Positions 2,958 to 60,084 of a DNA stretch of 64,000 bases are shown piece after piece (the first letter of the stretch is position 1; each line of letters begins with the position of its first letter). The position numbers and the translations under genes were made by a program. Below the pieces are notes generated by a model that saw nothing but the letters and a program-made list of their open reading frames with translations, was not told the origin of the DNA and searched no databases. Source of the stretch: Candidatus Hydrogenedentota bacterium (GTDB lineage Bacteria; Hydrogenedentota; Hydrogenedentia; Hydrogenedentales; JAGMZX01); NCBI GenBank assembly GCA_029556545.1, contig JAKQEQ010000042.1, positions 164,995 to 228,994 on the forward strand, in the 5' to 3' direction.

Positions 2958-4469
2958 TTACCCGCGAACGCGCCACGCGCAGACGGCCTCAATGAGATGC
3001 GCGGTGTCCGGCCGCGGCGGCTCGATCTGAATCTCGAGCCCCTGTTCCCGCGCCGCAGCCGTCGTCACCGGCCCAAGCGACGCAAAGACCGCGCCCCCGC
3101 GCAGCCGGGCCAACTGCGCGGCGTCGAGGAGGGAGGCGAAACAACCCACTGCCGCCGCGTTCGTGAACACGACGACCTCCGGCGCAAACGCGAGGAGCGC
3201 CTCGACCGCGTCGCGCGAGGTCTCCGCCGGGGCCTTGCGCCACCCCACGAGGTCCTCGACCGCCGCGCCACGCGCGCGCAAGGCCGCCGGCAGCGCGGAC
3301 CGCGCCACGTCCGCGCGCGGCAGCAGCACGCGCTTGCCCGACAACGGGCCGCCCGCAGCCTCGAGGGCGGCGACCACGGCGTCCGCGCCGAAGTGCGCCG
3401 GGACCGCATCCGGTTCGAGGTACCGCCCGCGTACCGCTTCGAGCACGCTCGGCGTCCCCGCGACGCATAACCGCGCCCCCGCCAGCGCGCGCGCGTCGCG
3501 CCCTGATCGGGCGAGCAGGTGGAAGAGCATGTCGACCGCGTTAACGCTCATCAGGAGCACCCAGTCATACGCCGCAAGATCGACCTCGGGCGGCGCGTCC
3601 ACGGCCTCGATACGGATCGCCGGAAACGCGAACACGTCCGCGCCCAGGTCACGTAATCGCGCTTCGAGCGCGCCTGCGTGTTGCTCCGCGTGCGTCACCG
3701 CGACGCGCAGCCCGTGGAGCGGGCGCTTCTCGAACCAGCGCAGGCGTTCGTGCAGCGCCGCCGCCGGGCCGACCACCACGAGGGCCGGCGTCTCGATACC
3801 CGCGCGGCGGCATTGCGCGCACAGGGTCTCGAGCGTGCCCGCGATCGTACGTTGCCGCGCGAAGGTCGCCCACTCGATAACCGCCGCCGGGGTGTCCGGC
3901 GCGCGCCCCGCGCGAATCAGCGCCTCGACAACGCGCGGGAGGCCCGCGACTCCCATGTAGACGACCTGCGTGCCCTCGAGCATCGTGTGCGCGACGTCCT
4001 CGAGCGGCGCGGCGTCGCCCGACGCCCCATGCGCGCTCAGGAACGTCACACTCGATGCCAGGCCCCGCTGCGTCACCGGGATGCCCGCATAGGCGGGCCC
4101 CGCCACGCCCGCCGTCACGCCGGGAACTACCTCGAACGGGACGCCCGCCGCGGCAAGCGCCGCGGCCTCCTCGCCGCCGCGCCCGAACACAAAGGGGTCG
4201 CCGCCTTTCAATCGCACCACGCACGCATGACGCCGCGCCTGCTCGATCAGGATACGATGGATATCCTCCTGCGGCAGGCTGTGCCGGTCGGCCTGCTTGC
4301 CCACGAATATGCGTTCGGCCCGCGCCGCCCGGCGCGGCAACTCGGGGGGTATCAGAGCGTCATAGATAACTACATCAGCGCACTCAAGCAACGCGCGGCC
4401 CCGCACCGTGATCAGACCCGGGTCCCCGGGCCCCGCGCCGACGAGATAGACTTTGCCGAATTCGCTCAT
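2958..4469 (-). CDS. cobA-hemD: Uroporphyrinogen-III C-methyltransferase / synthase fusion
   Basis: Bifunctional tetrapyrrole enzyme, 503 aa. The N-terminal half is SAM:uroporphyrinogen-III methyltransferase (SUMT), with YLVGAGPGDPGLITVRG and RLKGGDPFVFGRGGEE; it makes precorrin-2 for siroheme or cobalamin. The C-terminal half (from about residue 255, RPLHGLRVAVTHAE) is uroporphyrinogen-III synthase (HemD), which closes hydroxymethylbilane. Such CobA-HemD fusions are well known in several phyla. I placed the start at the ATG giving MSEFGKVYLVG, because a TTG-initiated version 14 codons longer would add residues ahead of the conserved first strand. No other heme gene is adjacent. It is transcribed divergently from murC. 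Confidence 0.92.
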   Translation of the reverse strand: MSEFGKVYLVGAGPGDPGLITVRGRALLECADVVIYDALIPPELPRRAARAERIFVGKQADRHSLPQEDIHRILIEQARRHACVVRLKGGDPFVFGRGGEEAAALAAAGVPFEVVPGVTAGVAGPAYAGIPVTQRGLASSVTFLSAHGASGDAAPLEDVAHTMLEGTQVVYMGVAGLPRVVEALIRAGRAPDTPAAVIEWATFARQRTIAGTLETLCAQCRRAGIETPALVVVGPAAALHERLRWFEKRPLHGLRVAVTHAEQHAGALEARLRDLGADVFAFPAIRIEAVDAPPEVDLAAYDWVLLMSVNAVDMLFHLLARSGRDARALAGARLCVAGTPSVLEAVRGRYLEPDAVPAHFGADAVVAALEAAGGPLSGKRVLLPRADVARSALPAALRARGAAVEDLVGWRKAPAETSRDAVEALLAFAPEVVVFTNAAAVGCFASLLDAAQLARLRGGAVFASLGPVTTAAAREQGLEIQIEPPRPDTAHLIEAVCAWRVRG

Positions 4470-56429: not shown

Positions 56430-56918
56430 CTACTGGTTCAGGCTCCACTCGACGAAGGCCTTCAACTCGCGCGCGCGGGTCGGGTGCCGCATCTTACGCA
56501 GGGCCTTGGCCTCGATCTGGCGCACGCGCTCGCGGGTAACGTTGAATACGCTGCCGACCTCCTCGAGCGTGCGCGGATACCCGTCGCCGAGCCCGAAGCG
56601 CAGCCGCAAGACCTTTTCCTCCCGTTCGGTCAGCGTGCCGAGCACCTCCGACAACTTCTCCTGAAAAACGCTGAAGGCGGTCGAATTCGCCGGATTCTCC
56701 GCGCTCTTGTCCTCGATGAAGTCCCCGAAGCTCGAATCGCCCTCGTCGCCCACGGGCGTTTCGAGGCTGATGGCCTCCTGCGCGATCTTGAGGATGGACC
56801 GCACCTTGTCGGAGGACATCTCCATCGTGTCCGCGATTTCCTCGGGGCTGGGCTCGCGACCGAGTTCCTGCACCATGCGCCGGCTCGTGCGCACCAGCTT
56901 GTTGATGCTCTCGATCAT
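56430..56918 (-). CDS. rpoD: RNA polymerase sigma70 factor, C-terminal part after in-frame stop
   Basis: 162 aa readable from an internal Met ([20 protein letters not shown]). The homologous frame is open back to the TAG at 56982-56984, so the sequence encodes regions 2.4 end, 3 and 4 continuously. Region 3 has [22 protein letters not shown]; region 4 has [20 protein letters not shown] and [25 protein letters not shown], the -35-binding helix-turn-helix. No ribosome site precedes Met 56918, so independent synthesis looks unlikely. With the N-terminal part this would be a normal housekeeping sigma factor of about 585 residues. Confidence 0.9.
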
Positions 56919-56981
56919 GTGAACCGGGATGCGGATCGTGCGCGCCTGATCGGCGATCGATCGCGTGATGGCCTGCCGAAT

Positions 56982-58190
56982 CTACCACGTCGCGTACGTG
57001 CTGAACTTGTAGCCCCGCTGATACTCGAACTTGTCGACGGCCTTCATCAGGCCGATGTTACCCTCCTGGATCAAGTCAAGGAAGGACATGCCCCGGTTCG
57101 TGTATTTCTTGCCGATGCTGACGACGAGGCGGAGATTCGCCTCGACCAGCTCCATCTTGGCCTTGTAGATTTTCTCTTCTTTCGCTTTAATCGTGTCGAT
57201 AAGGGCGTTGATCTCGTCCGTGCCGAGCTTGGCGTCCGCCTCGATCTGCTCGATACGGCGCAAAGCAAGCTGCAGCCGCCGCTCCGCGTCCAGCAGGGCG
57301 TCCTTGTCCACGCCAATCTTTCGCGCCGCCGCGGGCGAACGGCGCACCTGGACCGCCATCTTGTGCACCTCGTTCCGCCCAAAGCCGATCTCGCGCTCGA
57401 CCCGGTCGATCTCGTCGCGCGCGGCGTGGATGCGCCGGCGCAGCCCCTTGATCTTGCGGGCGATCTTCATGACCTCCTTGGGCTTCAGGGTGAACTGCCG
57501 CACGATCTCGACCTGCTGCGTGCGATACGCGTCGATGCGCTTCCGGATGTTGTCGCGGCTCTTGCGCGACAGGCGCGATCGGCGCTGCCGCTTCTCCTGC
57601 GCCTCGATTAGGACGTCGAAGCTGCCGATCTTCTCCATAAGTTCCGGCAGGCGTTTTACGAACTGATGCTGCTCGCGCAGGTCCTCGACATCGGTGATCT
57701 GCGCGAAATTGAGACGCCCCGCCAACAGGCGCGCCGCGATCATGGTAACTTCTTTCAGAGTGTACGGCGTGTGCAGCAGGACCTCGATCAGTTCCTGCTC
57801 GGCCGCCTCGATACGCTTCGCGATCGCGACCTCCTGGTCCTTCGTCAGCAACGGCACGCGCCCCATCTCGCGCAGGTACATACGCACCGGGTCGTCGGCT
57901 CGTTCGAGGCGGCTGTGCGCCGCCTCCCGCTTCAGTTCCTGCTTGCGCGCCTGCGCCGCTCGTTTCTTCTCCTGCTCCTGCGACTCGGTGTCGATCTTGA
58001 ATTCATCGACCACCTCGACGTTCATGTCGCTGAGCGCGACCATGACCTCGTCGAAATCCTCGACAGAAGCATCCTCGGGCAGCATGTCCCCCAGTTCGTC
58101 GTAAGTGACCTTGCCCTTCTTCCGCGCTTCCTCGAGGGCCTTGCGCGTCTTCTCCGACTCGATTACCTTGGATTTCGTCGTTACCGCCAT
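56982..58190 (-). CDS. rpoD: RNA polymerase sigma70 factor, N-terminal part ending at in-frame TAG
   Basis: 402 aa up to the premature stop. A lysine/glutamate-rich N-terminal region resembling region 1.1 ([23 protein letters not shown]) is followed by region 1.2 ([30 protein letters not shown]), a long non-conserved coiled region, and region 2 ([53 protein letters not shown]). In all housekeeping sigma factors the next residue is a second Trp (YATWWIRQAI). Here TGG is TAG, and the frame then continues [20 protein letters not shown]. Start ATG 58190 follows AGGAAG. It is downstream of dnaG, 130 bp apart, as in the classic macromolecular-synthesis operon. Confidence 0.93.
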
Positions 58191-58320: not shown

Positions 58321-60084
58321 CTAAGCGGCCCCCATCTTGTCGCGAAGCTCGCGCTCGACCCCGACCTTCTCCTCTAATAACGCCATTACGCGATCCTGGT
58401 CGTGCGCCCGCTCCGCTTCGCGGATCGCCGCCTGCAACGCTTCGGCCCGAGCAGTAAGCGCGTTCTTCTGAATTCCTGTGATTCGTCCTTTCACAATGCT
58501 CTCGGCTGACGCGCCGCGCGGCGGCTCCGAGGTGGCCGCGGCGGAATATAAGACCCCCGCCATACTATTCCCAAGAACATGGCCAAGTTCCTCGAATCCG
58601 GCTTCCGTTTTCAGTATGCGGGCCAGCACATCCCTCACAGGATCCCCCTCAAGGGGTATGCTCTGTAACGCTTCCCGGACCTGATCGCGAAGCGGCTCAC
58701 TGTGCAGCAACGCCGCGATAAAGTCAACATCGTCCTTCCGCGGCCGGAACGCGGGATCCGTCTTCTGGACCGGCGCCGGGCGATCGCTGGTCCGCCGCGA
58801 TCGCTCAAATTCGCCTCGAAAAGACCATTCATTCAGACCCAACTCCCGGGCGCCACGTTTCAGATACTCATCCAGACGCAACTGGTCCTCGATGTACCGC
58901 AGCACCGCGAAGAGGTCCCGCGCCACCGCTGACTTGCCCTCGATGGTCCGCAGCCGATTCTCATTCATGCGCACGAAGAACGTGACAAAATCAGGCGCTT
59001 CCTCGATACGCCCGAGAAACGCCTCGGGGCCGGCCTCGCGGATGAAATCATCCGGGTCCTGCCCGCTCGGCAGGGCGGTGGCGCGCACCTGCAGCCCGGC
59101 GGCGACCAGGACACCGATTCCGCGCAGGGCAGCCTGAATGCCAGCCGCGTCGCCGTCGTAAACGACGACCACTTCGGGCACGTAGCGGCGCATCAAGGCG
59201 GCTTGCTCCGAGGTCAGGGCGGTGCCGCACGTGGCGACTACGTGTTCGATGCCGGCGTCGAAACAACGCAGCAAATCCATGTAACCTTCGACCAGCAACG
59301 CGCGGCTCTCGCGGCGCAACGCCTCGCGCGCCTCATGCAGACCGTAGAGGACTCGACTCTTCTTGTAGATTAACGTTTCAGGCGAGTTGATGTATTTCGC
59401 CTCGCCGCTTTCGAGAGCGCGACCGCCGAACGCCACCGTGTTCCCCGTTACATCGCGAATCGGAAACATCAGCCGATCCCGGAAGGCGTCGTACCACGAG
59501 CCGCGGTCGCCGTGCTTGAACAAGCCGGACGCCTCGATAATGTCCTGGGCAAAGGGTTTCTTCCGCGCGGCATCGAGCAGGCTTGACCACCCCTGCGGCG
59601 CGTAGCCAAGGCCGAAGCGCTCGGCCGTGGCGCTCTTCAACTGTCGCGTCTGTAAGTAGTGGCGGCCACGGCTGCCCTGGAGCGGATTGCCCAGTGTTTC
59701 CCGGAAGTAGTGTTCGGCGAACCGGCACAGTTCGAGCGTCCGCGTGCGCAACAAGTCGGACCTCGGGTCCGCTTCCTTGAACGCCGGCAGCCGCACGCCG
59801 CCCCGGTCGGCAAGTTTCCGCAGACCTTCGATGAAGCTCAGGCCTTCATATTCCATCAGGAACGACAGCGCGTCGCCGCCTTTGCCGCAACCGAAGCAGT
59901 GGTACATCTGCCGGTCCCGGCTTACCACAAAAGACGGCGTCTTCTCCGTATGAAACGGGCACAGCGCCTTGAATCGCGACCCCGCCGGCTTCAGTTCCAG
60001 ATAGCCGCCGATCACGTCGACGATGTCGACCGCCGCGAGTACTTCCGCGATGTGATCGCGATTATACTTCTGGGCACCCGCCAT
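58321..60084 (-). CDS. dnaG: DNA primase
   Basis: 587 aa, full length. It synthesises RNA primers for replication. The N-terminal zinc-binding domain is [14 protein letters not shown] ... [13 protein letters not shown] (Cys-His-Cys-Cys). The Toprim catalytic core contains [18 protein letters not shown] and [18 protein letters not shown], with the acidic triad. The C-terminal helicase-binding domain spans roughly 430-587. ATG start at the standard N terminus. A consensus promoter lies 135-163 bp upstream. It precedes rpoD on the same strand; rpsU is not present upstream. Confidence 0.96.

Follow-up and report, generated by a model that had tools for sequence, protein, structure and literature searches.

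The rpoD locus and its internal TAG

The window, meaning the whole 64-kb stretch of DNA that was analysed, is the terminal part of a 229-kb contig in a draft genome of 6.1 Mb (195 contigs, 96.0% complete, 4.3% contaminated). Judged by RpoD, its closest named relatives are Candidatus Hydrogenedentota genomes assembled from metagenomes; taken together with the draft state of the assembly, this suggests that the source genome is itself metagenome-assembled. The features considered here are as follows, with substitution rates given against the orthologue in the same-genus genome G001.

58321..60084, minus strand: dnaG (primase), intact, upstream of rpoD; named from its N-terminal sequence
56430..58190, minus strand: rpoD (housekeeping sigma-70 gene), 586 codons plus a terminal TAG stop, with one in-frame TAG inside; named from NCBIfam models and the G001 orthologue
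56985..58190, minus strand: 402 codons of rpoD preceding the TAG, covering regions 1.1 to 2.3 (the latter for the most part); dN 0.060, dS 1.15
56982..56984, minus strand: in-frame TAG, codon 403, at the second Trp of the YATWW motif; read directly
56433..56981, minus strand: 183 codons of rpoD following the TAG, covering the remainder of region 2 and on to region 4.2; dN 0.026, dS 1.21

The internal TAG was read directly from the assembled sequence at 56984-56982, where the minus strand runs ...TTCAGCACGTACGCGACGTGG TAG ATTCGGCAGGCC..., and between the start codon (ATG) at 58190 and the terminal TAG stop at 56432-56430 it is the only interruption of the frame. An earlier note, made from the sequence alone, had placed an in-frame TAG in rpoD at the second Trp of the W-dyad with homology on both sides, and its reading proved exact. 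Because homology is complete on either side of the codon, the TAG within rpoD is not a chance occurrence. Residue 403 is the second Trp of the motif and is thus equivalent to W434 of E. coli sigma70 and W257 of Taq sigmaA. Both Trp residues of the dyad are 100% conserved in an alignment of approximately 1000 primary sigma factors, and the pair holds the -12/-11 edge of the transcription bubble (PMC4593229, Table 3 for the conservation).

The site lies approximately 7 kb inside the 229-kb contig, away from the contig end, and no N run or repeat was found at it. The dnaG-rpoD gene order is identical in the same-genus genome. Elsewhere among the genomes compared, sigma factor genes broken at N stretches, which are assembly gaps, were observed at two loci (L242, G024:C40:400-2400, and L244, G044:C144:14800-16600); damaged sigma genes therefore do occur in related draft assemblies.

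Identity as RpoD and copy number

When the TAG was masked as W, the product (586 aa) scored 624.8 bits with the NCBIfam RpoD model NF004208 and 392.7 bits with the RpoD C-terminal model TIGR02393, above the respective cut-offs of 555 and 354, and its alignment with solved RpoD chains was gap-free through the TAG site. The product thus resembles RpoD/SigA (E. coli sigma70) in its full-length homology, in passing the curated cut-offs and in aligning gap-free through the site and regions 2-4, and differs from it in the in-frame TAG at the second Trp of the dyad; an uninterrupted frame would be expected of a group 1 sigma-70 gene, and the assembled sequence contains one internal TAG.

A protein search of the genome identified the gene in the window as the only full-length rpoD. 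Two further sigma-70 matches, on contigs C2 and C142, are shorter (43% and 31% identity); one is of the group-2 type and the other FliA/WhiG-like, and both have counterparts in most relatives. A second rpoD in the genome was rejected, as both of these matches are alternative sigma factors, and the description of the interrupted gene as the only visible housekeeping sigma factor was borne out by the genome search, which gave no second intact rpoD. A 601-base DNA query across the TAG site returned one copy in the genome; there is therefore no alternative allele within the assembly, and a near-identical duplicate of the site was ruled out. Since the genome is 96% complete, a tRNA or a second rpoD may be missing from the assembly.

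Comparison with relatives

The rpoD of the same-genus genome G001 (L050) is intact and is the single full-length rpoD of that genome. It shares 92% amino acid identity over 586 residues with the rpoD of the window, as well as the same end and the same terminal TAG stop, and differs from it in carrying TGG, not TAG, at codon 403. Among the other loci aligned across this codon, 111 of 112 encode WW and none (0/112) has a stop; this count includes a few duplicate fetches of one gene and paralogous sigma genes, so that the number of independent genes is somewhat smaller. The two loci showing TAG (L001 and L172) are both the window's own locus and stand outside the 112. None of the relatives compared has an rpoD split at this place, and on these alignments the internal TAG is private to this assembly. 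The lone non-WW locus of the 112 is a Verrucomicrobiota metagenome-assembled rpoD (L157, positions 4040-4060), which reads WR through a TGG-to-AGG change at the same Trp codon; the resulting Arg is possibly another single-base error.

Selection on the two parts of the gene

Over the 183 codons after the TAG, 88 nucleotide differences from G001 were counted, distributed 8/3/77 over the first, second and third codon positions, with 7 amino acid differences (dN 0.026, dS 1.21, dN/dS approximately 0.022). The 402 codons before the TAG gave a dN of 0.060, a dS of 1.15 and a dN/dS of approximately 0.05. Judged by these rates, the part after the TAG is under strong purifying selection and is more constrained than the part before it. 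Such constraint indicates that the downstream part has been translated as RpoD since the split from the G001 lineage, and therefore the TAG, if real, must be recent.

Means of tolerating the stop

The genome contains 47 Rfam tRNA sites, for 46 of which an anticodon was assigned by ARAGORN. The tRNA with a CUA anticodon, proposed as a check in the earlier note, was absent among the 46 (0/46). One tRNA-like site that received no ARAGORN call (L049 99-170, G000:C102:25598-25667; 39 bits) has a TTT (Lys) anticodon and, from its sequence, appears to be a degenerate or truncated copy of tRNA-Lys. Release factor RF1 is intact, with scores of 502.8 and 510.2 bits that lie above both cut-offs. The best match to PylS reached 25.9 bits against a cut-off of 178, a similarly weak match was present in 13 of 14 control genomes, and pyrrolysine decoding of TAG was rejected because PylS fell below its cut-off. 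In the 1.51 Mb of genome from which long training ORFs were drawn, TAG terminates 167 of 632 (26%), and rpoD itself ends in TAG in both the window genome and G001; TAG is thus an ordinary stop, as previously held. Reassignment of TAG to a sense codon was rejected, since the RF1, tRNA, PylS and stop-usage tests were all negative.

The folding of the RNA across and downstream of the TAG is no different from that of shuffled sequence (z 0.1 to 0.5), with no unusual structure. Programmed readthrough was rejected on the grounds that the TAG is present in no relative and has no unusual RNA fold downstream. The first in-frame ATG after the TAG (Met 56918) has no Shine-Dalgarno sequence ahead of it, which agrees with the earlier statement that this Met lacks a ribosome site, and a restart there from such a site was rejected. 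The literature searched for premature stops in metagenome-derived assemblies, for Hydrogenedentota sigma factors and for two-piece sigma factors yielded nothing useful.

Search for other split genes

A coding-potential scan based on codon usage, which ranks stops flanked in frame by coding-like sequence, was run over 1.51 Mb, approximately a quarter of the genome. The best 40 of 4472 candidates were listed, and 35 of them were examined and judged by eye. The rpoD TAG ranked 21 of 4472, and no other convincing in-frame split gene was present among the best 40. The other high-ranking stops inspected were rejected as split genes, since by eye they resemble ordinary same-frame tandem genes with their own starts or antisense shadow ORFs. 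Among the true genes on the contig that are syntenic with G001, no internal stop was found besides that of rpoD; the stop beside rpoD in the dnaG frame precedes the dnaG start codon. A genome-wide excess of in-frame stops was rejected on the scan's best candidates in the 1.51 Mb, and the absence of other split genes among them indicates that the rpoD TAG is an isolated site.

Interpretation of the internal TAG

The TAG is very probably a single-base artefact of the assembled consensus, or else a rare non-functional strain allele taken up into it, with the living population making an ordinary RpoD that retains Trp-Trp. A single G-to-A change in the consensus, TGG to TAG, would suffice and could have arisen through a sequencing, DNA-damage or polishing error; alternatively, the assembler may have adopted a minority, defective or damaged allele. 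The living cells would then carry TGG at this codon, as seems probable from the comparisons above. The principal sigma factor is essential; given also that the residue is invariant, that the sister species has an intact gene and that a suppressor is lacking, there is little scope for either readthrough or a split factor. The site also has the character of consensus errors and mixed-strain alleles in metagenome assemblies, being an isolated nonsense change in a constrained essential gene that is absent from relatives. Against an error, the scarcity of other split genes indicates that the assembly is generally good, so that an error at this very codon would be unlucky; however, one such event in approximately 6 Mb is unremarkable even at quite low error rates. 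That a single-base error is the most likely cause had already been suggested, and this is supported by the intact orthologues, the purifying selection after the TAG, the lack of a TAG-reading tRNA, the intact RF1 and the absence of another clean split gene in 1.5 Mb. The interrupted rpoD is thus most likely not new biology but an error or stray variant in a metagenome assembly. As an error it carries only a caution, namely that a lone nonsense change in an essential gene of a metagenome assembly should be taken for an error or stray allele unless it is supported by reads or relatives.

It is very unlikely that the dominant strain really carries the TAG and reads partly through it, by means of near-cognate tRNAs or of an amber suppressor that escaped detection, to give enough full-length RpoD. 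Suppressor strains can tolerate amber codons in sigma genes, as some lines of E. coli K-12 do with their rpoS amber alleles, and the genome does hold one low-scoring tRNA-like site, though its anticodon reads Lys; yet no CUA tRNA was found, RF1 is intact, the RNA downstream of the TAG is no more stably folded than its shuffles, and TAG is a common stop that is not conserved at this codon even within the genus. Moreover, a residue other than Trp would occupy a position that is 100% conserved in approximately 1000 primary sigma factors (PMC4593229). Fixation of the TAG throughout the species, with the principal sigma factor made by amber readthrough at the invariant Trp and no recognisable suppressor tRNA, is highly improbable; were the TAG real, this bacterium would control or tolerate a stop codon within its most central transcription factor.

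Equally improbable is a true loss-of-function allele in a cell that uses a primary sigma factor missing from the assembly, or an alternative sigma factor. The assembly is 96% complete and some relatives of the same order (G022, G027 and G031) have two tandem rpoD-like genes, which would allow for this, but the same-genus genome shows a single full-length rpoD, the sigma factors on C2 and C142 are matched in most relatives by ordinary additional sigma factors, and the strong constraint after the TAG argues against long-standing decay. In a truly split factor, the N-terminal piece would stop at the first Trp, the C-terminal piece would start at Met 56918 and the two would assemble on RNA polymerase; this has a vanishingly small probability. 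There is an ATG at 56918 in the downstream ORF, and SigO/RsoA of Bacillus subtilis provides a precedent for a two-piece sigma factor. However, the break would separate two neighbouring Trp residues within the region 2.3 helix, the ATG has no Shine-Dalgarno sequence ahead of it, a restart there would drop 21 conserved residues, promoter-contacting positions among them, and no relative is split at this place.

Tandem rpoD-like genes in relatives

The tandem pairs in the same-order relatives consist of complete rpoD-like genes, located at 461-2308 and 2612-4372 of L243 (G027:C43:9800-14700) and at 450-2885 and 2942-5200 of L245 (G022:C49:1000-6200), with a further pair on contig C49 of G031. The second copies in G022 and G031 have clearly diverged, with 45% identity to the query as against 57-58%. 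Such side-by-side primary-type sigma factors may deserve separate study.
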